Assembly: GCA_030827475.1 (NCBI GenBank)
Contig: JAUREJ010000022.1
Coordinates: forward strand, 1-33,065
DNA length: 33,065 nucleotides
DNA from: Candidatus Poseidonia sp.
GTDB taxonomy: Archaea > Thermoplasmatota > Poseidoniia > Poseidoniales > Poseidoniaceae
Direction: 5' to 3'
Positions within the stretch are counted from its first letter, which is position 1; each line of letters starts with the position of its first letter. The position numbers were made by a program, and so were the translations under genes. The notes beneath the pieces were generated by a model. That model searched no databases and was not told the DNA's origin. It saw nothing but the letters and a program-made list of their open reading frames with translations. This document shows, piece by piece, positions 217-20,437 of this stretch.

Positions 217-1509
217 TCAACCCCACGAGCACGGTTCAAGCACCGTTTGACCGCCCAAATACGGCTGCAAGACATCGGGTACGGCCACGCGACCGTCCTC
301 CAATTGATACTGTTCCATAATGGCGACCAAGGCCCGAGATGTGGCGACAGCTGTCGAATTCAGGGTGTGGACGATGGGTTGGTTGGGGTGGCCCGGTTGA
401 CCGTAGCGGATGCCCAAGCGGTTGGCCTGATAGTCGGTGCAATTTGAGCAAGAGACGATTTCCTTGTACTGGTTTGCACCCGGAATCCACGCCTCCAAGT
501 CGTACTTCTTGGCGGCGACGGTCCCCATGTCTCCGGTGCAGATGTTCACCACCTCGTAGTGGATGCCGAGGCTGTCCCAAAGGTCGGTGCAATTTTGCAG
601 CAATTCTTCGTGCAAGGCCCAGGAGTCCTCCGGTTTGGCGATGATGATTTGCTCTATTTTGGTGAACTGATGAACGCGCCAGATGCCCAAATCGCTCTGA
701 CCGTGGCTGCCAACTTCACGACGGAAGCATTGCGACACGCCGACCATTCGCAGGGGCATCTGTTCCTCTGGGATGGTCTCGTCCATGAACATCGCTGTGA
801 GCGGGTGTTCGGAGGTGGCGATCATGTAGTACTTGTCCGGTTCAATGCCGTACATCACAGTTTCAAAGTCCCCCAAATCGGTAACCCCTTCGTAGGCTTC
901 ACGGTTCATCATCACGGGTGGCTGCACGAAGGTGTACTGGCGGGAACGAAGGAACTCAACCGCATACTGCTGCAACGCAAACTCCAGCCGAGCCAAATCG
1001 CCTTTGAGAAAATAGAACCGGCTCCCCGTGATTTTTGCGGCTCGCTTGAGGTCAACCCATTTGTTCATCTCGATGAGGTCGTTGTGGGTCCGTGGCTCAA
1101 ACATGAACGTCGGTTTCTCGCCGTGAACAGCGTGAGCCGTGTTCCCAGAATCGTCATCGCCAACGGGGACGTCGTCGTGAAGAATGTTCGGGATGGACAT
1201 GCGCAAGCGGTCACGCTCTGCCATCGCCTCGTTGGTTTTGGCTTCCCACTCTGCGATGCGTTGACCAAGGTCGGCAACCTGGGCGAGGATGCGTTGTGCA
1301 CCCTCGTTGTCGCCTGCTTTTTTCGCCGCCCCGATGCCTCGGGCAGCCTCGTTCTTCTCACGGCGCCACTGGTCGGTCTCGTGCAGCAAGTTTCGCCAGT
1401 TTTGGTCCAGTTCAATGACACGGTCGATGTTATCGTGAGGCAAACCCCGTTTGGTGTGGTCCGCACGGATGACATCGGCGTGTTCTCGAAACATCGTTAT
1501 GTCCAGCAT
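217..1509 (-). CDS. serS: Seryl-tRNA synthetase (class II)
   Basis: Cytoplasmic enzyme that charges tRNA-Ser with serine using ATP. The 430-residue protein has the standard SerRS length and order. Residues about 1-115 form the tRNA-binding helical arm, starting MLDITMFRE as in the family, with a charged coiled coil. The class II catalytic core follows, with motif 2 visible as CFRREVGSHG...HQFTKIE and motif 3 as LNSTAVATSRALVAIMEQYQ. It is the common bacterial/archaeal form, not the rare methanogen form. I chose the ATG at 1509 because MLDI is the conserved family start. An ATG two codons upstream (1515) shares its A with the TGA stop of the preceding protease gene (TGATG), so translation is probably coupled to that gene. 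A lipoprotein gene follows directly. Confidence 0.97.
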   Translation of the reverse strand: MLDITMFREHADVIRADHTKRGLPHDNIDRVIELDQNWRNLLHETDQWRREKNEAARGIGAAKKAGDNEGAQRILAQVADLGQRIAEWEAKTNEAMAERDRLRMSIPNILHDDVPVGDDDSGNTAHAVHGEKPTFMFEPRTHNDLIEMNKWVDLKRAAKITGSRFYFLKGDLARLEFALQQYAVEFLRSRQYTFVQPPVMMNREAYEGVTDLGDFETVMYGIEPDKYYMIATSEHPLTAMFMDETIPEEQMPLRMVGVSQCFRREVGSHGQSDLGIWRVHQFTKIEQIIIAKPEDSWALHEELLQNCTDLWDSLGIHYEVVNICTGDMGTVAAKKYDLEAWIPGANQYKEIVSCSNCTDYQANRLGIRYGQPGHPNQPIVHTLNSTAVATSRALVAIMEQYQLEDGRVAVPDVLQPYLGGQTVLEPCSWG

Positions 1510-1514
1510 GTGCA

Positions 1515-3746
1515 TCACCACGAGATGTTGAAACTCAAAATTTCGCTTCCGAGGAAGAAGAAACCGCCAACCAAGTACCCCATGATGGCCCCGCCGTTGA
1601 GCAACGGAAGGCCGGCTTGGGCTTTGCCACGAGCCACGTAGGTCATGAGAGCGAGGTAGCCGAGCAAACCACCCATCATCGTGGTCAGAGCGACGTTGAA
1701 GGCGACCTCGGGGTCCAGCCACTGCATCGCAGACAACACGAGCATCCCCGGGAAGATGACATCGCCCAATCCCATGAACATCGCTTCGCTGCCCTTGCGT
1801 TCGGGCCGACGGGCTTGGGGTTGACCGGGTGCGGCACGGTCAACGGAGACGGCACGCTTGTTCTGTTCGGTTTCCTCAATGAGGGAATAATCCCTGTCCT
1901 GGGGGGCGACCAGGAGGATGGGCAGACGAAGTCCGATCATGGTGTCGGCCAAATCGAGCATGTGCTTCGAACGGTAAACCGCCCAGAAATCGTAAACAGC
2001 GGCCAAGACCATGAAGAGAATGGCCAGCACCGGTACAAAGGTGACGCCCAGCATCACGCACACGCCTGCACCGAGCAGAACACCGGTGGTGTTGACCACG
2101 TACCATTCGCTGTGGACGAACAAAAGGACGAGCAGGAGGACGGTCACGGCCAAACCGACGAGGGTGGGGCCGAGGAGCAATTGCAACCCGTAAAGCGGGA
2201 ACATGGCCGTGGTCAGCTCTCCGAGGTGGACCGTGCTCGTGCCGTTTTCGACGGTCACCACGACGAGTTGTGTGCTGTTGTCATCGATGGCAAAGAACGC
2301 GTGACGGACGCCTTCTGGAACCGGGAAGGTCCCTCGGTCCACCAGCGAAGTGGTGTAGAGCCAATGCACCTGGGTTTCGTCGGCAACGAGCATGTCGCTG
2401 TAGCCCGATTCGTCCATATCGGTCAGCCGCAACGAGGTGACGTTGTCCACCAAACCGTCGAGCGCCATTCGGTCTTGAATCGCGTAGGTGGAATTCGCAC
2501 CGTTTCCGTCCCATTCCACGCCCGTTATGTGGCCATTGGACTCCCCCAACAGCACCAAGCGTTGAGCTCTTGTAGAGGGGTCGGCTTCAAGGGCGGTGAA
2601 ATTGACCTCCAAAAACGGTGAATAGCCGACATCAAAAGCGGAAAAGACGGCATCTGCTTCGGGTTGATACGCTGTGAGGTAGGTGGCGTTGCCTTGGGTG
2701 CCGGGCGCCATACCGATGCCGCCAATATTCTCCTCGAGAAGAACGGCGCCCGCTTGGGAGGGCGTCACGATGAACCACTCATCGTCATCCAGCAAGGTGC
2801 TTCCATGAACGCCTTCTTCCACATCAAATCCCGGAAGCACCCACCGACCGCCTTCTTGAACGAGCAGATTGATTTCGGGGAAGGATTGGAAACGAACAAG
2901 TTCGTTGCGTCCGGTGACGACGTAAACGATGTCGTCAACCGGTGCGGCCAGTTCACAACCTGGGGCGACGTTGGGCAAGTAGTTGATATTCGGTTCCGCC
3001 CACGTCTGACAGGGATAACTCGCCTCCAGTGCCCCGGTATCGCCGTCAACCTGCCAGATGTAATCACCGCTTGCGAACATGAGCGAACCGTCTGCTTCGG
3101 TCATCGTCACAGGATGGCTCCTGTCGTACACGTTGTGAGCGTGTTGAACCGTCCACACCGGAGAGGCGTAGTTGTTGGACGCATCCCAAGCACTGATGTT
3201 GACGGTTGAATTCAACTCTTCCGAACCAACATTGGCGAGGACGAAGCCGTTTTCTCCCCACGTCCCGAGAACATCGCCCTCCGTCGAAGAAGTGGTGCTG
3301 ACTTCAAACGGCTCGGGTTCAAAATCCAGGACGAGCATGTGCGCAAGGGGCACCAGGGAATACAATAGAGCGAGACTCAACACGGCGTACATGCCGTATT
3401 TGATGATGAATTCCTTGCCCCAACGGGCGAGGAAAATAATCAGGGCCGTGAACGCGAAGATCGCAAGGAGTTCGATCGCCACGTAGCGAACTTGGGTGGC
3501 GCCCGATGCTCCAAAAGCATGCAACTCCCCGACATCGTAGTAAGGTCGGATGTAGAGGGCAAGGGCGATGGTTGCGACGAACATGCCGGCCATGCCCGTC
3601 ATACCGCGCCACTGTTCGGCCATGAGGGAGACCAATGTGTCGCCTTGCCTCAACTCGTCCTCAACTTCAGCGAAGCGTTTCGAGACGCGGCGTTTCCAAC
3701 CGCTCTCTTCTGCATCGCTCATGAAGGTGCCACTCCGCTCTTGCAT
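1515..3746 (-). CDS. Presenilin-type intramembrane aspartyl protease with a large inserted ectodomain
   Basis: Predicted polytopic membrane protease of the presenilin/signal-peptide-peptidase family (archaeal PSH). Seen: hydrophobic segments near residues 51-68, 88-107 and 117-140. A soluble region of about 370 residues follows (142-511), then segments near 517-545, 552-567, 571-590, 656-675, 684-706 and 712-733, for about nine in all. The catalytic signatures are in the expected helices: YD at 585-586 in TM6, GLGD at 659-662 in TM7, and a PAL-like PLL at 714-716 at the start of TM9. The soluble insert has several NxS/T sequons, a PQQ-propeller-like stretch (WQVDGDTG) and an FG-GAP-like stretch (TDMDESGYSDMLVA). 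With a cytoplasmic N-terminus the insert falls outside the cell. Archaeal relatives are usually much shorter and lack such an insert. An alternative start is the ATG at 3722 (MSDAEESG), preceded by a GGAG and better placed relative to the TATA-like ATAAAAT near 3760. The gene is divergent from folC. Confidence 0.85.
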   Translation of the reverse strand: MQERSGTFMSDAEESGWKRRVSKRFAEVEDELRQGDTLVSLMAEQWRGMTGMAGMFVATIALALYIRPYYDVGELHAFGASGATQVRYVAIELLAIFAFTALIIFLARWGKEFIIKYGMYAVLSLALLYSLVPLAHMLVLDFEPEPFEVSTTSSTEGDVLGTWGENGFVLANVGSEELNSTVNISAWDASNNYASPVWTVQHAHNVYDRSHPVTMTEADGSLMFASGDYIWQVDGDTGALEASYPCQTWAEPNINYLPNVAPGCELAAPVDDIVYVVTGRNELVRFQSFPEINLLVQEGGRWVLPGFDVEEGVHGSTLLDDDEWFIVTPSQAGAVLLEENIGGIGMAPGTQGNATYLTAYQPEADAVFSAFDVGYSPFLEVNFTALEADPSTRAQRLVLLGESNGHITGVEWDGNGANSTYAIQDRMALDGLVDNVTSLRLTDMDESGYSDMLVADETQVHWLYTTSLVDRGTFPVPEGVRHAFFAIDDNSTQLVVVTVENGTSTVHLGELTTAMFPLYGLQLLLGPTLVGLAVTVLLLVLLFVHSEWYVVNTTGVLLGAGVCVMLGVTFVPVLAILFMVLAAVYDFWAVYRSKHMLDLADTMIGLRLPILLVAPQDRDYSLIEETEQNKRAVSVDRAAPGQPQARRPERKGSEAMFMGLGDVIFPGMLVLSAMQWLDPEVAFNVALTTMMGGLLGYLALMTYVARGKAQAGLPLLNGGAIMGYLVGGFFFLGSEILSFNISW

Positions 3747-3818: not shown

Positions 3819-5105
3819 ATGGATGAGCCGCACGGGTTGCGTTGGTGGCTCACAGAAACGAAGTCTCGTGGCATGGCGTTGGGCGTGGAAGCAACACACC
3901 GCGCGCTCAAAGCGCTGAATCTTGGACCACCTTCATACGAAACGGTTCATGTTGCTGGAAGCAACGGGAAGGGCACCACCGTCGCCACGCTCAGCGCCGC
4001 GCTTACCGCGAGCGAAATTCCCAACCTCTCGTTTACTTCGCCGCATCTGGTGCGTGTGGAAGAGCGGGTCCGGCTCAACGGCGTCCCCGTCTCCCGGGAT
4101 GAATTCGACCGTGCCTTAGCCGCCGTCAAAGCGGTGGAGGACAGCACGAACCATCCGCTCACGTTTTTCGAGGTCACCTTTCTCGTTGCGGCCGTCGTTG
4201 CAAGCCGCCACGATATTCGCGTGCTGCTGCTGGAGACCGGGTTGGGTGGGCGTTTGGACGCTACTCGGGCGGCGACGGCTGACATCTCGGTGGTGACCGC
4301 CCTTGCGTTGGAACACACCGATGTGCTCGGGGATGATTTGACGGGCATCGCCCGGGAAAAGGCAGCCATCGCTCGCCCTTTTCAACCCCTTATCGCCCGA
4401 TGGCCCAAGGAGGTTGAGGTGAAAAACGCGGTTGAAACCCTCGCCCAGCGGGTGGGAAACCCGGCTCTTGGCGAGCAGGTGGGACCGGCCCTGCTCGAAT
4501 GGGTTTCCATGGAAGAACACGACGGAGCCTTTGAGGAAGCGAAGCGCCTTTCCAAGGCCGTATGGCCGCACCTAAAAGCGACCGAAGGTACCGATTTCCC
4601 TCCGCTCGAAGCCCTCCATTGGCCGGCGCGCATGCAACGCGTTGCAAGCCCAGGAAAAGACGAGATGACCTACCTGCTCGACGGGGCGCACAACCCGAGC
4701 GGGATGGTGAAATCGTGTGAGCACCTCACCAAGACGTTCAGCGAAACGGGCGAGCCTTGGGGCTTGCTTCTCGGCAGTTCCCCCCAAACCGACATGACGG
4801 CTTTTTTATCCCCGCTCGTGAGCTTAACGAACGTCCACGCCCCCTCTGTGGTTCTTGTATCCGTGCCGCAAGGTGGGCGCTATCCAGGGGTGGAGGGGAA
4901 CGTCATGGCCGGCCACCTTCGAGCATTGGGGGTGCCCGTCCACCGCATCACCGCCACGCCCGCAGAAGCCGTGACGTGGTTCGAGACCCAACCCACCAGC
5001 ATCAAGACCGTCCTTTCCATCGGTTCGCTCTACATGCAAGGCAATGTTCTCGAAGCGCTTGGGGCCACGGACGATGACGCCCTGACCGTGCGGGCGAAGG
5101 TATGA
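3819..5105 (+). CDS. folC: Folylpolyglutamate synthase / dihydrofolate synthase family (Mur ligase fold)
   Basis: ATP-dependent cytoplasmic ligase that adds glutamate to folates (and, in bifunctional members, to dihydropteroate). The 428-residue product has the family's usual length. Near the N-terminus it has the P-loop HVAGSNGKGTT (residues 44-54), then the folate-site segment FTSPHLVRVEERVRLNG (72-88). Further on come ETGLGGRLDATRA, the conserved LEHTDVLG and REKAAIA segments, and the C-terminal-domain motif LDGAHNPSGM. The open frame extends further upstream, but the ATG at 3819 is the first start giving a normal FolC N-terminus, and it clears the divergent protease gene. The stop overlaps the dCMP deaminase start by four bases (ATGA), so the two form an operon. 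The synthase activity cannot be separated from the dihydrofolate-synthase activity by eye. Confidence 0.93.
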   Translation: MDEPHGLRWWLTETKSRGMALGVEATHRALKALNLGPPSYETVHVAGSNGKGTTVATLSAALTASEIPNLSFTSPHLVRVEERVRLNGVPVSRDEFDRALAAVKAVEDSTNHPLTFFEVTFLVAAVVASRHDIRVLLLETGLGGRLDATRAATADISVVTALALEHTDVLGDDLTGIAREKAAIARPFQPLIARWPKEVEVKNAVETLAQRVGNPALGEQVGPALLEWVSMEEHDGAFEEAKRLSKAVWPHLKATEGTDFPPLEALHWPARMQRVASPGKDEMTYLLDGAHNPSGMVKSCEHLTKTFSETGEPWGLLLGSSPQTDMTAFLSPLVSLTNVHAPSVVLVSVPQGGRYPGVEGNVMAGHLRALGVPVHRITATPAEAVTWFETQPTSIKTVLSIGSLYMQGNVLEALGATDDDALTVRAKV

Positions 5106-6347: not shown

Positions 6348-8168
6348 TCACGGCGTGTAATTGAGAAACATGAAGACGCCCACCGTGAAAACGAAGAGCG
6401 GAACGATCAAAATCTCAAAGATGGACCGGTTTTGAGCCAACAAGTCCAACTCCGTACCGTAATGCAGAACCGAGGCATCTCCGGTGGCGGTGGTGGGAAC
6501 CACCGTGAGCAGGGCGTTTTGAACGGTTGGGTCACCTCCCCAATCGCTGAGATGTTGTTCGGTTCGGGGAACACAATCGCCGAGGATGTACACCGGGTCC
6601 CCAACACCGAGGCCTCTTACGTCCCAACGCCAATCTCCTCGCTGCCAAGTGTCCAAAACAGGTCCAAGGTCAACCTGTTTTTCCTCCCATGACTCCGGGT
6701 CAACGATGATACCGCCTGAACCGTCGTGAAGAACGAACGGAACGCCGTTGGAGACCCGCTCTTTGTGGTTCCAGCTGCAAGACCTGTTTCCCTTGCTATC
6801 GGTGGTGCATTCGTAACGATAGGAGTCCCACCTCCAGGTCACCAAACCCTTGGTTTCTCTCCCACCGACTTCCATGGCCGGCGTTCCCGCAACGGAAGGG
6901 CGAACTTGCCCCACCAATTCGACTTGGCCTACCGCAGCGCTCCGTACGGGTGTGGTGGGCAAGTCGCTGACCAACCGAACAAGTTTGAATTGCTTCCAGG
7001 CGCGGTAAAACCAGACCAAATTCACCCCCGTCACCAAGAAGGTGAGCCCCCATCCCAACATCGAATGGAACCACGACCCGTCTCGAGCTCGGAGGTCAGC
7101 GGCCAACCAAATGAACGATATCGAAAAGAGAAGGGCCCCGATGGAATACGGTGTGATCGTGGCGGGCCGAGGCGTCCCCAACTTGATGGGGTGCTCGGGG
7201 ATGAGGGTGCCATCGCCCTGTTGTTTGAACGGGTCTTCATAGGACTCGGGCAGTGGAGGGGCGCCAAAGAGCCAGTCGTCTTCAACGTCTCTGGTTGGTC
7301 TGGATGGCGTTTCAAGGCGTTCAAAATTCAAGCCAAAGTGCGGGAAAGAACGACCGGAACCGCGTAAAAAACCTTCGCCGGAGGTGGGGTTTTTGGCCGA
7401 TGCCGAGTTTTGGTTGCGGATTCGCCTCAAATCCTCTTTGAGCGAAGGGGTGGTGCTGTACATGAACACCAAACCGGCCAACCCACTGAAAAGAAGCGCC
7501 CAGCGGCCTCGGTCTTCTCGTTGCGTCACCTCATCGGGAAGGATGGCGTTGCTGAACCCGAGGTTTTCGGCCACGGAAAGCAATTGATAGCGAACAGGGT
7601 CTTCTTCAACGAGCATAAAAACCGAAAAACGGTGGTTGTCGCTGTGACCCTCCCCGTGACCGATGATATCTCGGTCGTACTCGCTTGAACATTCGGAGAG
7701 CATGGTGCCTTCAGGGCTTAGGGAGCCTTGTTTCGAAAAAGATGCATCGATCCTCTGACCGGCGACATCGCGGAACCGAACCAAATCGTCTGAAAATTCG
7801 ACACTGTATTGCCAACTCCCCCCTCCGTCATCGTCCTCAACCCATCTGCAGGATTCGGAGCCAATCCCGCCGCTTTCAAGTTCAAGCGGAACCACGACAA
7901 AAGCGGCGGCGGTGGCGTATTCATCAGCATCGTACCCCTTCTGCAGGGGGCCGAAGGCATACATGGACGGGTCTTCATGCAAGGAGGGCAATTTTTCAGC
8001 CTCGTCAATCCGGGGCACATCGGGAATGAAGAGGCTTGAGGAGTAGAGGAACACCGCCACAATCATCAATACGACGGAGAGCACATACCCGGCTTTGTGA
8101 GCGGCCGTGGGTTTTGGAAAGTGGAAGAAACCATGGTCCAAACCGTAGGCCTCGGATGAACTCGCCAT
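6348..8168 (-). CDS. Multi-pass membrane protein with a GIDE-like domain
   Basis: The 606-residue protein has a hydrophobic segment at about 27-47, then an extracytoplasmic-looking region of about 170 residues. Further hydrophobic segments lie near 223-240, 340-358, 368-390 and 583-603. Between the last two is a soluble region (about 413-560) with the layout of the GIDE/MULAN-type domain: VGQVELVGQV, an aromatic stretch around YRYEC, a PFVLHDGSGG turn followed by VDPE, and later GVGDPVYILG before the C-terminal helix. In eukaryotes this domain occurs in mitochondrial E3 ligases, but no RING finger is present here; in prokaryotes its role is unknown. The region 250-330 is low-complexity and probably cytoplasmic. 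A well-placed TATA box at 8191-8197 points to a leaderless transcript starting at the ATG. The domain call is by pattern only. Confidence 0.7.
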   Translation of the reverse strand: MASSSEAYGLDHGFFHFPKPTAAHKAGYVLSVVLMIVAVFLYSSSLFIPDVPRIDEAEKLPSLHEDPSMYAFGPLQKGYDADEYATAAAFVVVPLELESGGIGSESCRWVEDDDGGGSWQYSVEFSDDLVRFRDVAGQRIDASFSKQGSLSPEGTMLSECSSEYDRDIIGHGEGHSDNHRFSVFMLVEEDPVRYQLLSVAENLGFSNAILPDEVTQREDRGRWALLFSGLAGLVFMYSTTPSLKEDLRRIRNQNSASAKNPTSGEGFLRGSGRSFPHFGLNFERLETPSRPTRDVEDDWLFGAPPLPESYEDPFKQQGDGTLIPEHPIKLGTPRPATITPYSIGALLFSISFIWLAADLRARDGSWFHSMLGWGLTFLVTGVNLVWFYRAWKQFKLVRLVSDLPTTPVRSAAVGQVELVGQVRPSVAGTPAMEVGGRETKGLVTWRWDSYRYECTTDSKGNRSCSWNHKERVSNGVPFVLHDGSGGIIVDPESWEEKQVDLGPVLDTWQRGDWRWDVRGLGVGDPVYILGDCVPRTEQHLSDWGGDPTVQNALLTVVPTTATGDASVLHYGTELDLLAQNRSIFEILIVPLFVFTVGVFMFLNYTP

Positions 8169-8294: not shown

Positions 8295-8376
8295 TGCCGG
8301 GGGCAGGATTCGAACCTGCGAAGCAATATGCAGAGGAGCTTGAATCCACCCCCTTTGACCACTCGGGTACCCCGGC
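8295..8376 (-). tRNA. tRNA-Leu (anticodon CAA)
   Basis: An 82-base class II tRNA. The acceptor stem GCCGGGG pairs fully with CCCCGGC and is followed by discriminator A73, the leucine identity base. The D arm is CCC-GAGTGGTCAAA-GGG and the T arm GCAGG-TTCGAAT-CCTGC is perfect. The anticodon loop TTCAAGC gives CAA with G37. The variable arm contains a GCA-TAT-TGC hairpin. The anticodon stem (GTGGA with TCCTC) has one T-T mismatch at positions 28-42. No CCA is encoded and no intron is needed to fold it. It reads UUG codons. Confidence 0.93.
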
Positions 8377-8409: not shown

Positions 8410-11400
8410 CTATTCCTCTTGGACTTCGTCCATGAGCCCCCACGGAACCGGCGGAGGAGTCCGTTTTGACACGATTCGGCGGATTCGCTCCAGATGATAG
8501 GCCTCTTCGCTTTCGGACCGCTTTTGATTGACGATCAACAACACCGCCCCTGCAATAACAATGGAAAGAATCGAAAGGCTCAGGACCGCCATGCTGCTGA
8601 TGGCCTTATCGCCATCCGAGGCTTGAACATCTGCCAGAGGAATGGGTATGAGCGGCGTGTAACCCTCAAGTTGGACGCTGAGGCCCAACCGGCCCACCTC
8701 CCACGCCGTAACATTCCAGGACACTTTGACCCACTCTCCGGTGGCGAGAGCGATGTCTTCCGAAGCAAGAATGCGCCCTTTACCGTCCCGAAGTACCGCT
8801 TTGGTTTCCCCGGGAAGCAAACCCTCGTTTGCAATGCGGACGTAAATCGCCACATCGTCACCAACCTCGGGTCGATACGGCGAGGCCGATATGTCGGTGA
8901 ACACCGGTTCAAAGGCCACCCAAGTCATGCCCACGTTGAGCGGTGCTGATTCCGTTCCCAGTCCGGTCAATGCCCTCCCCGAGCGGTCGTTGGCTTCAAA
9001 CCAAACCACGAGGAGATCGCTGCGAGTCAATACCACTTCCGCAGGGAGGAAGCTCACAACGCCTTCGTAAACGGTGTAGGCATTCACCACGTCGATGATG
9101 GGCAGTTCGTCCACGCGTTGGGTTCCTTCAACAGGTTGACCCATGCGGTAGAACACGGAGTGCATCTTCAGCGGGCCGGGTGGCATGTGGGTGTCATCAT
9201 TCACGCTCAGCGTGATGCTAACGTTGTTGAGTTGATTGGAATCCAAGCGTTCCAGGGTTCCAGGAGAGAGCACCAATTTGGGCGCACGGTCATCCAGCAC
9301 CACGTCGTACGCTAAGCCGTTGATTCCATACGCTTCGAAGCCTTTGGGAGTGACGCTTACATTTCCATAATCGTGGTACATGATGCCCGCATTCATCGTG
9401 ATGTTCAACTCCATTTCCCCTGACGAGGTGACGTTAAACGCACCCTCCATCCGACGTTCACCATCGTTGAGTTCCCACACGAAATGGCCAACGTCGGGGA
9501 GGTCACGGGCGAGAAGATCGGTGCCTTCGTGCACCACGCCCAACCGGTGGTGAATGACATCGTTGCGGTGGAACCAATGCGTCGTTTCATTGGATTCGCC
9601 GACAGGTTCCATCGTATCAACGATCTCAAGCCATCGCAAAGCAAGAGCCGTGCTGCCCGTCCATGCATGCGCGTTGAGGTGGTGCAGGCCCAAGCCCAAA
9701 TCTTGACCCTCGTCGACGACCACCAAAGCCGGCGTACCCCCGCTTGAGGCAACGGATTGGGTGGCCGCCCATCCCAGACGGAATCGGAAGGTGACGTCGT
9801 AAGTGGACGAGAGCGGGCGTTGTGCAACCGAGACCTGCGGCTCCTCATGGAAACAGGTTTCATCGGCTGAGACCTCTCCGAATCGAGGCTCGTAATGCAC
9901 GAAGCAGGAAGCCGGCGCTGATTCTCCCAACAAAGCGAGTTCAATGCGGTCCAACGAGGCAATGCCGTTGCCGTCGGAGAGGACGAAGGAAAACGAATGT
10001 TCGTGACCGGCCAGAAGGTGCCCGTTCACCGCATCCATGCGTATGTCGTCGATGTCCGCGGTGGTGTCGGCCCGTTGTTGAACGCGAACCGTTGCCAAAT
10101 CGTTCTCTTCACCAAAGTCGCCGCCGCCTTCAAGTGGGTTTCCAGCAAGGTCGTGGCCTTTGACCACGATGCTTGCTTTTCCTTCAAAGGCCCCGTCAGG
10201 GAGGATTTGGGTGGAGGAGATGAGGGGGAGGTCAACCTCCATCCCAGTGACGCCCCGATTGACGCTCACGTGTTGCATCGTATATTCCTCCGGGTCCATC
10301 ACACCGTCGTCGTTGGCGTCGTTCTGACGTTCCAACCATGTCCAGATTTCCACACGGTTCTCCAACCCTTCTACATCGCTGAGTTCCATCCGCAACGGCA
10401 GATCGCGACCAGAAAGGATCACGTGGCCGTCTGCGGGCACCTCCCTTCCAGAATCAAGGAGTGACAAAGAGGCCACGTGCGGTGATACCGTGTCGTGAAG
10501 CAAGCGAGGAGGGTTGAGCACCACGGAGCGGTCCTCGCTGGAGGATGCGTTGACTTCGGACGGCCCTCGACGGGAAAGACTCGGACGAATTTCAAGCCAT
10601 GTGTTGCTCGGTACGCCATCTCCAAGACTCGGCGTGTTCATGGAAACCGAAAACCAACCGTCGTCTTGAATTTCTGCGGTCCATGTTCTCGACCAGTTCA
10701 CGGGCGCACCAACCCATTCGTCCTGGCCACCGGAGACGTTCTTTGGAGGGACGGCTCGGAGGGATACGCTGGCTTCGCCTTGGCCCGCCTCGGCCCACTG
10801 GTCAACAATGCCTTCCAAGCGTACGCGGCCGGTGGCAACCAACGATTCATTTTCACCTAGATGATAGGGCCAAAACGAATTGGTCCAATCGTCAAGGCGA
10901 CGCAAAGAGGCGTCGACAACCGTGAAGTCCACCACCTCCAAATCGTTCTCAACCTCGTTGAACGGGGTGCGTCGCACGAAGACGGAAGGGCCGACTTCCA
11001 AACCTTCCTCATCGCTGGCTTGAGTTAGCACGTGGAGGTCATCGATGTCATCGAGCAACCAGGTGCTTGCAAAGGTCCAAGTCACGGTGCAGGCGTTGAC
11101 GACGCACGAGATGTTGGATGCTTGAGTTTGGAACGGTGACACACCCGCACCGGTCAATTGCCTGAATCGAGGGGTGGCATCCAAACGGTCAACGAGGACA
11201 TGAGCGAAAGCATCGGAAAGGGAGGACGAGGTGCTGAGGTACAACGCCACCTCCGAGATGTCCGGTGCATCTTCGCTCAAATCGAGCGGGTTTTGGCGTT
11301 GATGATGCGTTGTAAAGGTCACCGAAGATTCCGGCAACCATCGAGTGTGAAGCGGTGGGTCAACGCTCTCCACCATCAACGGCAGGGTGTTCGCGGTTAA

Positions 11401-14400
11401 TCCCGCTCTCAGACCGCCGTAAGCGGTGCGAACGTGCAAGGGGATGGTGAGCACTGCCCGTACATCCCCCGTAGCGGACGCCTCTTTCGCTTCGTTGAGC
11501 AGGCTCGCATCCAAATCAATGTCCAGAGTTTTGAACGAAGAGAGGTGGGTGAAATGGAGTACTTTCACGTCTGCTGAACCGACAAGGCCGACATCGATCT
11601 CGCAGGAGAACAGGGAATAATTGGAGGAAACCGTTGCGGAGAGCGAGGAAGAGGGGCATGCACTGGCGGTCGTGTAGGTGAACGGTTCTGCTTCAGAGGG
11701 CAAGTCTTGCAACACACCATTGATGCTCAAAGCGAGCGAGGCGGTGCGGTTGGTGACCGTCACCAACATCGACGCCCCGGGGCCCGAAACCGACCCCGAG
11801 CGCTGAACTGTACGGTAGGTGAGCGTCACGTTGCTGTTGTTGAGGGCGAAGGACGGCACCGGAACGGAGGGATCCCATGGTGCCGAAACACCGTCGTGGT
11901 CAACTTCCGCCAAGCGGCCGTTCAGGCCGAAGGTGGCCGACATGCTGGAGGGTGGCCAATCGAAAACGGTGGCGTTGTTCCACCCCAGCTTCAATTCGGG
12001 GCTTTCCGTGGGACGAACACAATCCAGTTCGGCTTTGCTCCGTTGAACCACTTCACCTCCGGAGGCAGTGACAGTAAAGGTCGGATTGACCGAAAGTTTC
12101 CCGCTCAAGGAGTAGTTCAGATAGGTGGTTTTGACGGGCTTGGCCTGATGGGATGAGGCGTAAAGTTGCGGTTGAGCCATGGTCCAGGTGAGGTTATCGC
12201 CGATGTTGGTGACGCGATACCCGTCAAACGGGCAAGCGAGCAAAGCAGGAAGTGACAAGGAGAAGGGTGCGTGAACGACCAAGTTCCCGTCGGCATTGAC
12301 GGACGAGGCGTTGGCGCCGTCGGGGGAAGCCAGCACATGCTCCGGTCCGACGAAGGCCGTTCGACCCAAGGTCATGCTGTGAATCAACGGTGTGACAAAG
12401 GTGTCGTTGGTGGCCATCTTCACACGAAGATGAACGGTCGGGTGCTCAACAGGGTCAACACTGAGGACGGCTGGCAGCGAGAGGTTGCTGTGGCCGTCGA
12501 TGGGTTGGAGTTGCGCGTCGAGGACATCGATGCTCAGGGTGGTGCCTTCTGGAACGGTGGACCAACCGTCAAGCCATCCATAACCAAACAACGGATGTGG
12601 TGCAAGAGAAGGCGAAGTCCATTGTCCTGAGGTTTCGAAGACATCGATTTCAACGCCGGCATCGTCGATGTACCAACCGTCGGCCTCAACGTAGGTGTCA
12701 GAGAAAAAGGAAAAGCGCGCTTTGACGGATTGACCTGAAAGGTTTGAGAGGTCGTAGGTCTTCAATTCAAAGGGCCTGTTTTTGTTCGTACCGCACCCGT
12801 TTGGAGCGCTTGAACCGTCGATGATCCCTTGACCAAAGAGCGGTGAATTGAGGTTGACGTTTGATATTTGGTCGTGGAAACCGTTCAAGTTTGGAGGTAA
12901 AAACCACCATGTTTGGCCACCATCGGTGGAGATGGAAACCGCTCCGCCGTCCCAATTGGCTTCTGCGCACACCCAGGACTGGAACGCGAGACGAGCGGAG
13001 GCGTTGGTTGGAATGCTGTATTCTTCGGTCACGAGGTGCGTGTAGATGTTGTTGGTGTACTTCGTGGTCAGGTTCACTGCCGCCCCACTGCTGCCCGAGT
13101 GGAATTGACCCGGCCCGTAGCCCGAGGTGTTTCGTGTGGTTCCAATCTCCCATCCGTCCGGCCACGTGCCTTCAATCAACCACCCAGGAGGCGCAACCAT
13201 CGTTTGCTCAAACGAGTTTGTGGTGCTCTGTGGTCCGTTCATCCCGAAGTTCGTTGTCCACATCCATTCGTTCACCGATGATGTGTTGGCGCGCCAACCG
13301 TTGGGGTCACCGGAAACACCGGTGGGCATCGTTGTGAAGTTCGCAACTTGAATGATGTCCGCTTGAGGGGTCCCTCGGCCGTCATGAATCAGCACGTTGT
13401 CGATGGCAACGCCCTCCCATCCGGACGAGGCAAAACCTCCGAAACCCGTTTGGTGGTTGGTTTGGACGTGGAATTCAAGCAACACCGAGGACGCGTTGGG
13501 GTGCGAGGCCAAACCGCTGGGCAATGCGTAGAAGATGGGTACCCAACCCAACGATTCGTCCGTGTAGAACCTCCCTTGGGACGTGAACCCGTTCCCCGGG
13601 AGGCCTGGAATTCCCGAGACGGATTGCCAGGTTGTTCCGTTGTTCACACTGAGCGCCACCATCAGGTTGTCGGAAAAAGCGCCCTCCAAATCCCAATTGG
13701 CCCAAAACTGCAACTCCAAGGTGCCGGTTGTTCCCGACACATCAGCGAGAACATACATCTTCCCGTCTGCATTGTTGGCGTAACTTCCAGAGAGGTTTCC
13801 GTGGAACCATGCCCCGGGTTGATCACCTTGATTGGAGATGGTGAGGTTGTCAATATACCACCCTTGACGAGTGCCAACCGAAGCAGAGGTTTCGTAGCAG
13901 GCACGCACCTCAAGCGTTGCTGTTGAAGCGTTGGTCAGGCCGTCCAAGAGAAATTCCGCTCTCTCCCAAACGGTGGATTGACCGGACCAAACAGAGGAGG
14001 GTGCTTGTTGCAATGACGATGCGTTAGGGTAGGCAACGATGGGGTTCAACGTCTGCCAGGTGCCGCCGCTTCCTCGCCACTCCATCCACGCAGCATCGTC
14101 GTCATGGAGCGATAACCAGTGATCAAAGGTCAAACGATAGCCGACAACGAAGGCGGGAACGGTCATCGAAGGCGAGGCAAGACAACCGCTCATGTTCGCG
14201 GTCAAGCCCCCGAGGGCTTGCGTCGTGAGCACCCGTTGACCATGAGTAGCGTTGGTGGGTTGACCAGCCCCAACACCGCTCAAAGGCAAAGCGACCACGT
14301 TCCAAACCTCGTGGTCCGGGCCTTGGCCCTCCCAGTTGGGGAGCGTTTCCACCAACGTCTCAAAATCGGTCAATGAGGCTACCGTGGAAACGGGTGAGAG

Positions 14401-14769
14401 CGAGAGTTGTCCACCATGACCGATGCCCAGGGTGCCGTTGTGCTGCCCGCTCCAACCAGCATTCAGGTCGATGCCGAACCGATGCCCCGTCAATCCGGTG
14501 TCGGTCCATGTCGGCGTGATGTCAAGGCGACCGCCGCTGAAGGTTTCATTGGCAGGAATGTTGAGCATACCGTTGTTCGTGGTGTTGACGCTCGTCGCGT
14601 TGAGCGTTGGGGTGAAAAACGTAGCATGAGAGGGCGTTGGAACGTTGTTTTCCAACGGTTGAACGAGGGGGGTCGCCAACATCAAGAACATCAGCAGGCA
14701 CAATCCGATGGCCGAGCGCCGACGCCTCGCGTCGTCAGCCGGGCGGGATTGACCGGGTTTCATGCTCAT
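8410..14769 (-). CDS. Giant secreted, membrane-anchored surface protein (2119 residues)
   Basis: The N-terminus has a basic RRRR stretch and a hydrophobic signal (residues about 19-38). The C-terminus has a single hydrophobic anchor (about 2056-2081) and a 38-residue charged tail, so nearly the whole chain should face outside. The first third holds several jelly-roll/MAM-like modules, recognisable from repeated pieces such as GWYIDNLTIS, GVAIDNVLIHDG and DGWYIDDAGVE. A calcium-loop-like DANDDGVMDPEEY lies near residue 1483. The last module before the anchor looks like a CARDB/Ig-type domain (PEVGDDVAIYVRIANEG). NxS/T sequons are frequent, as expected for an archaeal surface glycoprotein. No protease or other catalytic motif was recognised. 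A role as adhesin, surface-layer component or polymer-binding protein is possible but unproven. It is a single uninterrupted frame, divergent from the GINS gene, with an inverted repeat at its start. Confidence 0.88.
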   Translation of the reverse strand: MSMKPGQSRPADDARRRRSAIGLCLLMFLMLATPLVQPLENNVPTPSHATFFTPTLNATSVNTTNNGMLNIPANETFSGGRLDITPTWTDTGLTGHRFGIDLNAGWSGQHNGTLGIGHGGQLSLSPVSTVASLTDFETLVETLPNWEGQGPDHEVWNVVALPLSGVGAGQPTNATHGQRVLTTQALGGLTANMSGCLASPSMTVPAFVVGYRLTFDHWLSLHDDDAAWMEWRGSGGTWQTLNPIVAYPNASSLQQAPSSVWSGQSTVWERAEFLLDGLTNASTATLEVRACYETSASVGTRQGWYIDNLTISNQGDQPGAWFHGNLSGSYANNADGKMYVLADVSGTTGTLELQFWANWDLEGAFSDNLMVALSVNNGTTWQSVSGIPGLPGNGFTSQGRFYTDESLGWVPIFYALPSGLASHPNASSVLLEFHVQTNHQTGFGGFASSGWEGVAIDNVLIHDGRGTPQADIIQVANFTTMPTGVSGDPNGWRANTSSVNEWMWTTNFGMNGPQSTTNSFEQTMVAPPGWLIEGTWPDGWEIGTTRNTSGYGPGQFHSGSSGAAVNLTTKYTNNIYTHLVTEEYSIPTNASARLAFQSWVCAEANWDGGAVSISTDGGQTWWFLPPNLNGFHDQISNVNLNSPLFGQGIIDGSSAPNGCGTNKNRPFELKTYDLSNLSGQSVKARFSFFSDTYVEADGWYIDDAGVEIDVFETSGQWTSPSLAPHPLFGYGWLDGWSTVPEGTTLSIDVLDAQLQPIDGHSNLSLPAVLSVDPVEHPTVHLRVKMATNDTFVTPLIHSMTLGRTAFVGPEHVLASPDGANASSVNADGNLVVHAPFSLSLPALLACPFDGYRVTNIGDNLTWTMAQPQLYASSHQAKPVKTTYLNYSLSGKLSVNPTFTVTASGGEVVQRSKAELDCVRPTESPELKLGWNNATVFDWPPSSMSATFGLNGRLAEVDHDGVSAPWDPSVPVPSFALNNSNVTLTYRTVQRSGSVSGPGASMLVTVTNRTASLALSINGVLQDLPSEAEPFTYTTASACPSSSLSATVSSNYSLFSCEIDVGLVGSADVKVLHFTHLSSFKTLDIDLDASLLNEAKEASATGDVRAVLTIPLHVRTAYGGLRAGLTANTLPLMVESVDPPLHTRWLPESSVTFTTHHQRQNPLDLSEDAPDISEVALYLSTSSSLSDAFAHVLVDRLDATPRFRQLTGAGVSPFQTQASNISCVVNACTVTWTFASTWLLDDIDDLHVLTQASDEEGLEVGPSVFVRRTPFNEVENDLEVVDFTVVDASLRRLDDWTNSFWPYHLGENESLVATGRVRLEGIVDQWAEAGQGEASVSLRAVPPKNVSGGQDEWVGAPVNWSRTWTAEIQDDGWFSVSMNTPSLGDGVPSNTWLEIRPSLSRRGPSEVNASSSEDRSVVLNPPRLLHDTVSPHVASLSLLDSGREVPADGHVILSGRDLPLRMELSDVEGLENRVEIWTWLERQNDANDDGVMDPEEYTMQHVSVNRGVTGMEVDLPLISSTQILPDGAFEGKASIVVKGHDLAGNPLEGGGDFGEENDLATVRVQQRADTTADIDDIRMDAVNGHLLAGHEHSFSFVLSDGNGIASLDRIELALLGESAPASCFVHYEPRFGEVSADETCFHEEPQVSVAQRPLSSTYDVTFRFRLGWAATQSVASSGGTPALVVVDEGQDLGLGLHHLNAHAWTGSTALALRWLEIVDTMEPVGESNETTHWFHRNDVIHHRLGVVHEGTDLLARDLPDVGHFVWELNDGERRMEGAFNVTSSGEMELNITMNAGIMYHDYGNVSVTPKGFEAYGINGLAYDVVLDDRAPKLVLSPGTLERLDSNQLNNVSITLSVNDDTHMPPGPLKMHSVFYRMGQPVEGTQRVDELPIIDVVNAYTVYEGVVSFLPAEVVLTRSDLLVVWFEANDRSGRALTGLGTESAPLNVGMTWVAFEPVFTDISASPYRPEVGDDVAIYVRIANEGLLPGETKAVLRDGKGRILASEDIALATGEWVKVSWNVTAWEVGRLGLSVQLEGYTPLIPIPLADVQASDGDKAISSMAVLSLSILSIVIAGAVLLIVNQKRSESEEAYHLERIRRIVSKRTPPPVPWGLMDEVQEE

Positions 14770-19191: not shown

Positions 19192-19208
19192 GTGAAACCC
19201 CGTTTCAC
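19192..19208. repeat. Perfect inverted repeat between the PKD lipoprotein gene and pyk
   Basis: GTGAAAC and GTTTCAC flank CCC. The repeat includes the stop codon of the lipoprotein gene and ends three bases before the pyk ATG. It could act as an attenuator, mRNA processing site or operator; no poly-T follows. Confidence 0.45.
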
Positions 19209-20437
19209 TTGTAGTACAGACGGATGACGAATTGGTCGATGACGAAATCGTTCACGCGGTCGTTTTGAATCGTCATGGTCCATTCACCATCGCCGTACGT
19301 TGAATCCGTGTCGGAGAAGAGGTAACTTGAGAGGCGGAGGTGGACGCAGTCCTGTTCGCTATCGCACTCGCCATCGTCCCGCGATTCTCGGTCAACCTTG
19401 GTGGTGTTATCGGCTTCCTCGTCCTCTTCGTTGTAAGCAAAGATGTCGATTTCACTGCGGCAGTTGTTGGCTCCCGGAATCGGGGTACAGTCCTCGTCCT
19501 CCTTGGGGTACTCCAACTCCATTTGGGCTTTCACGATGGTGTTGCCTGATGTTTTGTCGTAATGAATCATGGTCTTGAATTCCAGCGTAGCGGGATTCCC
19601 GCTGGTGTTCCCACCGATTTCGAAATCGTTCCAGTATCCCGCATAGTTCACGATGACTTTGATGGTGGCGCTGTCGGTCATGTCCACGTTGTTGGTCACG
19701 GTCAGGCCGATTTCGTATTCACCGGGTTCAACGTTGGACCACTGCACGGTCTCGCCGACCAAATCGCCGTCGTTTTCGCTGTCGCCATCGTTGTCCTTGT
19801 CGTCGTCCAAGTTGAGATCCCACCGGTAACCGTCGGTTGGAATGTACTGGGAGGATGCCTCACCAGCCGTGGAGGCCGAGGCGTCGAGTTCGATGGTGAT
19901 GGTCTCGGTCACGGTCCGGTCGGTCATCGATTTGTCGCGAGCGCAGATCCAGACCAAGATGTAGCGGTCCTCGTTGATGGTCTCGTCCTCGCAATCTTCG
20001 TTGTCCGCATATTGCCTGATTTCGGCCTTTGGAGGCTCGGCGCTTTCAGCATAGACGACGACGTCTCGCGTTTGTTCTGAGGTCGTGGTGCCGTCCGAAA
20101 CTTCCAACCTGACCTGGTAGGTTTTGGCCTCGTCAAATGACCACGAGGCTGTGCGACCCGTTGCGTCGATGTCGATGGAGCCCTCTGCATCAAAGTTCCA
20201 ACGGTAGGTGAGCGAGCCGTCACTTGGCGTGGAATCCGAGGCATCAAACGTGACGGTGGTGCCGGATTTGATGTTCTTTGATGGACTGAATTTGAAGACG
20301 GCAAGAACGTCTTCAGCGTCGGCACCGCCGTCGTCTTCGAAAATGCATCCCGCAAGGGAGGACATCACCATCAGGCAAGCCATGAGCAGGGTCACGGAGA
20401 TGCGGGCCATGCGCTGCGGTGGTGGCTCGGTTTTCAA
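19205..20437 (-). CDS. PKD-domain lipoprotein
   Basis: Exported lipid-anchored protein of unknown role. The 410-residue frame has a hydrophobic signal ending in the SLAGC lipobox (lipidated Cys31 in this numbering) and then an acidic stretch (FEDDGGADAED). A PKD-like domain (about 45-128) is recognisable from DASDSTPSDGSLTYRWNFD and YQVRLEVSDG. A second PKD-like module (about 175-265) contains an Asp-rich, calcium-loop-like DLNLDDDKDNDGDSENDGD insert. The C-terminal part resembles a beta-sandwich such as the proprotein-convertase P domain (DSTYGDGEWTMTIQN near the end). The ATG ten codons in (20410, MARISVTLL) may be the real start because it gives a normal-length signal peptide. It lies 18 bases after the polB stop and just before pyk. 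Confidence 0.82.
   Translation of the reverse strand: MKTEPPPQRMARISVTLLMACLMVMSSLAGCIFEDDGGADAEDVLAVFKFSPSKNIKSGTTVTFDASDSTPSDGSLTYRWNFDAEGSIDIDATGRTASWSFDEAKTYQVRLEVSDGTTTSEQTRDVVVYAESAEPPKAEIRQYADNEDCEDETINEDRYILVWICARDKSMTDRTVTETITIELDASASTAGEASSQYIPTDGYRWDLNLDDDKDNDGDSENDGDLVGETVQWSNVEPGEYEIGLTVTNNVDMTDSATIKVIVNYAGYWNDFEIGGNTSGNPATLEFKTMIHYDKTSGNTIVKAQMELEYPKEDEDCTPIPGANNCRSEIDIFAYNEEDEEADNTTKVDRESRDDGECDSEQDCVHLRLSSYLFSDTDSTYGDGEWTMTIQNDRVNDFVIDQFVIRLYYK

Follow-up and report, generated by a model that had tools for sequence, protein, structure and literature searches.

The gene at positions 1515 to 3746 of the window, by which we mean the whole stretch of 33,065 nucleotides of Candidatus Poseidonia sp. 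that was analysed, encodes, judged by its sequence, a presenilin-family (A22) intramembrane aspartyl protease whose activity is predicted, and this protease core almost certainly carries a beta-propeller inserted in the loop between TM3 and TM4. Among the titles and abstract openings listed from the openly accessible literature, which was the limit of that search, no description of a propeller-inserted PSH was found. The features are the following, by position in the window.

1515..3746, minus strand: inserted PSH gene (psh), 743 codons plus stop, a single open frame without internal stop
3720..3722, minus strand: Met9, possible true start, invariant in a 17-row alignment
3327..3605, minus strand: TM1-TM3, residues about 48-140, from hydropathy and NF041679 positions 2-88
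2214..3323, minus strand: beta-propeller insert, residues 142-511, predicted extracellular, from AlphaFold2 and Foldseek
1548..2192, minus strand: TM4-TM9 catalytic half, residues about 519-733, from phmmer to 4HYC and Foldseek
1989..1991, minus strand: Asp586, predicted catalytic (YD, TM6), aligned with the YD of 4HYC
1761..1763, minus strand: Asp662, predicted catalytic (GLGD, TM7), aligned with the GMGD of 4HYC
1596..1613, minus strand: PAL equivalent GLPLLN, residues 712-717
2955..3011, minus strand: Cys246 and Cys264, possible disulfide, both invariant in the 17-row alignment
2394..2420, minus strand: Asp-rich loop D443-x-D445-x-S447-G-x-x-D451, possibly Ca-binding-like, from the 17-row alignment
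217..1509, minus strand: serS (seryl-tRNA synthetase), the adjacent next gene, in the same direction as psh
3819..5105, plus strand: folC-like gene, divergent from psh, from neighbour comparison

Translation may start at Met9 rather than at the first codon of the 743-codon frame, two of the 17 rows in which Met9 is invariant being aligned only from this residue onward.

The archaeal PSH model NF041679 matches the protein with 209 bits against a cut-off of 125 (E 9.8e-62), and the Pfam SPP profile PF06550 covers residues 528-730 (E 1.8e-47, 162.6 bits against a cut-off of 23.9). In the genome search, NF041679 splits into positions 2-88 on the N-terminal side, a piece that by itself is under the cut-off (E 7e-4), and positions 93-279 on the C-terminal side. 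With phmmer against the PDB, residues 523-729 align with residues 95-291 of the PSH 4HYC (E 2.1e-29), and a second piece, not significant by itself, pairs residues 45-130 with 4HYC 5-88. Since these pieces end and begin there, the insertion point corresponds to 4HYC 88/95, and the two flanking alignments thus describe an ordinary PSH that is broken after TM3 and before TM4, at the site given for the insert in the preliminary description, with about 370 residues in place of about 7. The YD (residues 585-586) and GLGD (659-662) motifs lie on neighbouring TMs. Among 88 rows, YD and GxGD are each conserved in 88 and GLP in 86, and both aspartates and GLP are retained in all 36 inserted rows. The profile matches, the 4HYC alignment and the YD, GLGD and PAL-like motifs together bear out the presenilin/SPP assignment that had been made from the letters of the sequence. 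In the whole-protein AlphaFold2 model, the membrane part is mostly at pLDDT 31-62. A low-confidence model of the C-terminal half (mean pLDDT 57) gave 4HYG as its best Foldseek match (E 1.5e-3, TM-score 0.40), with PSH chains at E 1.5e-3 to 1e-2 ahead of gamma-secretase chains (0.14 at best) and SPPL2a (0.64). None of the matches reaches E <= 0.001, and this order is consistent with a presenilin fold, not decisive.

The insert is, according to the models, a beta-propeller. We ran AlphaFold2 on 16 sequences, the window protein and those of 15 loci, with L012 (frame break), L009 (N) and L018-L020 (partial or distant) omitted. Between residues 151 and 510, the ten-residue blocks are mostly at pLDDT 74-93, falling to 50-70 in places, while 30 strands of at least three residues are predicted between 151 and 511; residues 144-511 contain no 19-residue stretch above KD 1.11. 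Foldseek against the PDB returned 649 matches at E <= 0.001, and the best 50 are led by beta-propellers, with the BPB propeller of DDB1 (E 9.4e-11), BamB (1.9e-10) and the ribosome chain SGG (5.5e-10) at the top. We take the chains SGG and Sg of the ribosome entries to be RACK1. DDB1 BPB and RACK1 have seven blades and BamB has eight. By target, DDB1 BPB and the RACK1-type chains reach TM-scores of 0.55-0.60 and BamB 0.34-0.45, and because the seven-bladed targets outscore the eight-bladed one, the propeller is most likely seven-bladed. The mostly confident all-beta model and the propellers among the top matches support what had been called a propeller-like ectodomain. At the level of profiles, the best Pfam match on the insert is the BBS7 propeller PF23743, below the cut-off (E 0.02, 14.6 versus 27 bits), and no FG-GAP/integrin-type or PQQ propeller profile was found in it above cut-off.

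The propeller is very probably extracellular. Nine segments, in line with the roughly nine hydrophobic ones first noted, can be placed by hydropathy with bounds set by hand, segments 5 and 6 merging in the plot, and hydropathy and the positive-inside count agree on a prediction of nine TMs with the N-terminus inside. The parts predicted inside hold 8 (N-terminus), 2 (loop 2-3), 11 (loop 6-7) and 2 (loop 8-9) K+R, and the outer loops 1-2 and 7-8 none with these hand-set bounds, Arg67 being assigned to TM1 and loop 5-6 left without residues; loop 4-5, predicted inside, is also without K or R, which counts against the topology. The insert region contains 10 K+R versus 57 D+E and 8 sequons. This charge pattern, the sequons and the invariant Cys246 and Cys264 suggest an insert outside the cell, as had been supposed. 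According to PMC7248309, access to the MCMJR1 active site is from the cytoplasm, which suggests that the propeller lies on the side opposite to that of active-site access.

Scanning the genome collection with a pattern yielded 20 loci, of which 17 match over the full length or almost all of it. Among these 17, all from other genomes, 16 are open in one frame. The frame break of L012 (1 of 17) is the one sign in favour of two genes fused through an assembly or annotation error, which the preliminary description had named as a way to be wrong; the 16 open loci, together with halves of NF041679 that flank the insert in the correct order, reduce the probability of such an artefact to practically nothing. 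In all five pairs computed, dN/dS of the insert is 0.10-0.18, as against 0.02-0.09 for TM1-3 and 0.06-0.08 for TM4-9, with synonymous sites near saturation in at least two pairs. Such purifying selection indicates that the insert has some function, even if it changes more quickly than TM4-9.

The insert is not confined to the window. A PSH match was obtained in 134 of the 145 genomes of the order, above cut-off in 132, and we sorted them as long or compact by the frame length of the C-terminal match. Searching the homologues for the same insertion, we found a long frame in 62 of the 66 genomes of the window's own family (f1) that have a C-terminal match; the four others are shorter, and in three of them (G037, G041, G061) the remaining piece lies on a different contig. 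A further two f1 genomes (G035, G039) have the N-terminal match only, and four have none. In the sister family (f2), 16 genomes are long, 46 compact or partial and 4 have 444-445 codons, with seven lacking a match; the long frames are all the matched genomes of genera g14, g16, g18 and g21, and the insert is absent in 7 of 11 genera. One f2 genome, G023 (97% complete, 3% contamination), has two full compact PSH matches, on contigs C45 and C43, the extra copy being a paralogue or contamination. Across the phylum, 254 of 292 genomes have a match, the majority of the listed ones compact, and inserted forms also occur in f8, f11, f18, f26, f33 and, as a fragment, f28. Complete inserts of these other families are about 220-370 residues long; four of the inserted rows in the comparison are fragments. 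From the TM3-start motif to the xEWYVV-type TM4 motif we counted 40-65 residues in 47 compact PSHs and 275-454 in 32 inserted non-fragment ones. The generalisation that archaeal PSH proteins are compact thus does not hold throughout, inserted forms being common in parts of the phylum.

In a search of 194 phylum genomes with profile A4, which gave 29 matches in 27 of them, the propeller was seen solely as part of a PSH. Of these matches, 24 lie in frames of at least 718 codons; the other five lie in shorter frames of three genomes, three also matching PSH and two starting at or near the first base of a contig. No stand-alone propeller gene was seen with A4 in the window's own genome and the 194 phylum genomes, and as A4 missed the inserts of four long f2 genomes (G007, G015, G030, G038), a divergent stand-alone relative could escape it too. 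Among viral contigs, 46 pattern matches yielded no confirmed relative. The sole plasmid match, a haloarchaeal gene of 1089 bases, was set aside as too short to hold a propeller insert. Patescibacteria were sampled with two loci.

The inserts of f1 and f2 align by hhalign with 99.7-99.9% probability and are therefore one domain. With those of f8, f11, f18, f26, f28 and f33, hhalign of the window insert did not reveal homology (0.2-27%); the f18 and f8 inserts reach 70.7% with each other, and that of f33 has a weak propeller signal (BBS7, E 1.9e-5, below cut-off). When 88 cores were placed in a quick tree that left the insert out, the long label requires three changes, and the 15 f2 rows that are compact or have the hairpin fall into a single starred clade within the long ones, so that a loss of the insert in the compact f2 lineages is the best reading of these sequences. 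A group made up of f2 and every long row is not rejected in a 75-row tree (p-AU 0.756), 13 rows having been dropped (long branches, fragments, near-copies and two bacterial rows), among them the f28 fragment, the sole inserted row standing apart in the 88-row tree. One ancient gain of the insert is possible. The same loop has received other additions. L080 (G266, f5), from an otherwise compact lineage, has a 93-residue DUF11 domain at the insertion point (E 1.6e-8, above cut-off), and in four f2 genomes of genus g17 (L093-L096) the stretch from TM3 to TM4 is longer by about 46 hydrophobic residues, probably an added membrane hairpin, which are missing from the one compact g17 protein compared (L035). 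Since the DUF11 domain and the probable hairpin share the propeller's loop, this loop looks like an insertion hotspot.

The gene context of psh is shared by long and compact forms. The gene at 217..1509 we take to be serS, as in the preliminary description, and that at 3819..5105 is presumably folC-like, judged by its sequence. serS adjoins psh in all 17 loci L001-L017 and in all 30 loci L023-L052, 28 of the latter being compact; the folC-like gene is the divergent neighbour in 16 of the first 17, the L006 contig ending before it, and both genes flank compact copies too. From this shared serS context we conclude that, within the order, long and compact genes occupy a single locus as orthologues; with 28 compact orthologues sharing it, the linkage is uninformative on the insert. 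serS was not found in six loci of 9-13 kb from f8, f11 (two), f18, f26 and f33. In six loci read by eye, the psh neighbours differ among families. The gene had been described as co-translated with serS and a lipoprotein gene. The order of psh and serS stands, with a junction of a 1-base TGATG overlap or a 5-base gap, from which co-translation is only inferred, and the lipoprotein gene did not prove general, a relative being present in 6 of 17 loci (weakly in L007), with the contigs of L005, L009 and L011 ending within or shortly past serS. Neither serS, which lies beside 28 compact forms, nor the lipoprotein is favoured as a functional partner, and no conserved partner gene specific to inserted forms was seen in the flanking genes read. 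Search with bacterial patterns in this archaeal host gave no promoter and one terminator at the gene, no more than in shuffles.

Elsewhere in the window, all on the minus strand, lie a secreted-looking giant protein of 2119 codons (8410-14769) with an InhA-like MAM domain (Pfam E 3.8e-13) and, by eye, a hydrophobic stretch near its C-terminus; a tRNA gene (8295-8376, Rfam RF00005, 53.6 bits) upstream of a membrane-protein-like frame of 606 codons (6348-8168) that has no Pfam match at E <= 0.001; and a PKD-domain protein, probably surface-exposed (19205-20437), between the genes of pyruvate kinase and a family B DNA polymerase.

As to the main role of the propeller, our leading and still tentative reading, with a probability of roughly 0.45, is that of a fused extracellular gate or substrate filter, proposed by analogy to nicastrin and to the PA domain of SPPL2. 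The propeller, outside the cell in the N-in topology and joined to both TM3 and TM4 by a chain each, would act as a built-in gate. It would sterically hold intact proteins with large outer domains off the TM6/TM7 site and admit short membrane stubs, for example cleaved signal peptides or anchors remaining after shedding, as well as proteins bound by the propeller. The core persists without the insert in the compact sister-family orthologues, which fits an accessory selectivity module, and as most sister-family genera lack the domain, it is dispensable for basic function.

Alternatively, the propeller could serve as a scaffold, which would deliver substrates instead of filtering them. It would either anchor the protease to a partner (the secretion machinery, the S-layer or a second protease, for instance a sheddase) or promote oligomerisation. 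Propellers are typical interaction platforms, the top fold matches DDB1 and BamB are subunits of complexes, and highly divergent sequences at one site would fit changing partners; we nevertheless consider this role rather unlikely, as no neighbour gene peculiar to the inserted forms was seen. Slightly less probable still would be a ligand sensor, in which the propeller binds a sugar, a peptide or Ca2+, shifts TM3/TM4 and switches the protease on, with release of a cytoplasmic signal fragment (regulated intramembrane proteolysis). The two covalent links running straight into TM3 and TM4 would suit such a switch, propellers are common ligand binders, and D443, D445, S447 and D451 of the Asp-rich loop are invariant in 17 rows; in several other inserted genera, however, this loop is altered by eye, and the flanking genes read show no linked regulator. 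That the domain is a near-neutral passenger of a loop tolerant of insertions, without a role in proteolysis, would agree with the propeller, the DUF11 domain and the hydrophobic hairpin all having been taken up by a single loop and with the domain missing from 7 of 11 sister-family genera. The low dN/dS across 370 codons and the long single frame kept in nearly all f1 genomes make this improbable, well below the scaffold and the sensor.

The closest known relative is the archaeal PSH/MCMJR1 of Methanoculleus marisnigri (4HYC, 4HYG, 4Y6K), which shares YD, GxGD, GLP and an alignable TM4-9 with the window protein but, in its 301-residue chain 4HYC, has only those about 7 residues at the site of the insert. 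Substrates with which MCMJR1 has been assayed include the Gurken TM (PMC2947513) and APP C99 (PMC9282858). DDB1 BPB, RACK1 and BamB share the fold of the insert, but with 8-14% identity in the matches listed. In gamma-secretase, a presenilin 9-TM aspartyl protease is likewise found in complex with a large extracellular domain for which gating is proposed. That domain, nicastrin, is a separate subunit with a fold unlike a propeller. Homology of the insert to nicastrin found no support, as it has no such Pfam match at E <= 1 and none among the best 50 of 1217 Foldseek matches. Nicastrin is described as a steric hindrance to substrate interactions in the title of Bolduc 2016, as cited in PMC7248309. 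SPPL2a/b/c have a luminal domain fused in the same chain that affects substrate choice, but it is of PA fold and N-terminal. The insert follows TM3 and has no PA match at E <= 1, so homology to this domain is unsupported as well. According to PMC12043953, the PA domains help to tell apart substrates with different luminal parts, and for SPPL2 it agrees with the N-terminal position given in the preliminary description. It is conceivable, though on balance doubtful, that the TM3-TM4 loop is a port for plug-in ectodomains, into which one Thermoplasmatota lineage would have acquired a propeller and its relatives a DUF11 domain or a hairpin, others having unplugged it; the propeller would then yield a one-chain gamma-secretase-like machine, in which covalent gating arose independently of nicastrin. 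Compact PSH is a model for presenilin without partners, and a natural one-chain presenilin with ectodomain, whose compact orthologues share its order and its gene context, would make it possible to address in a single protein, through deletion of the domain, whether the ectodomain selects substrates by size or by binding.
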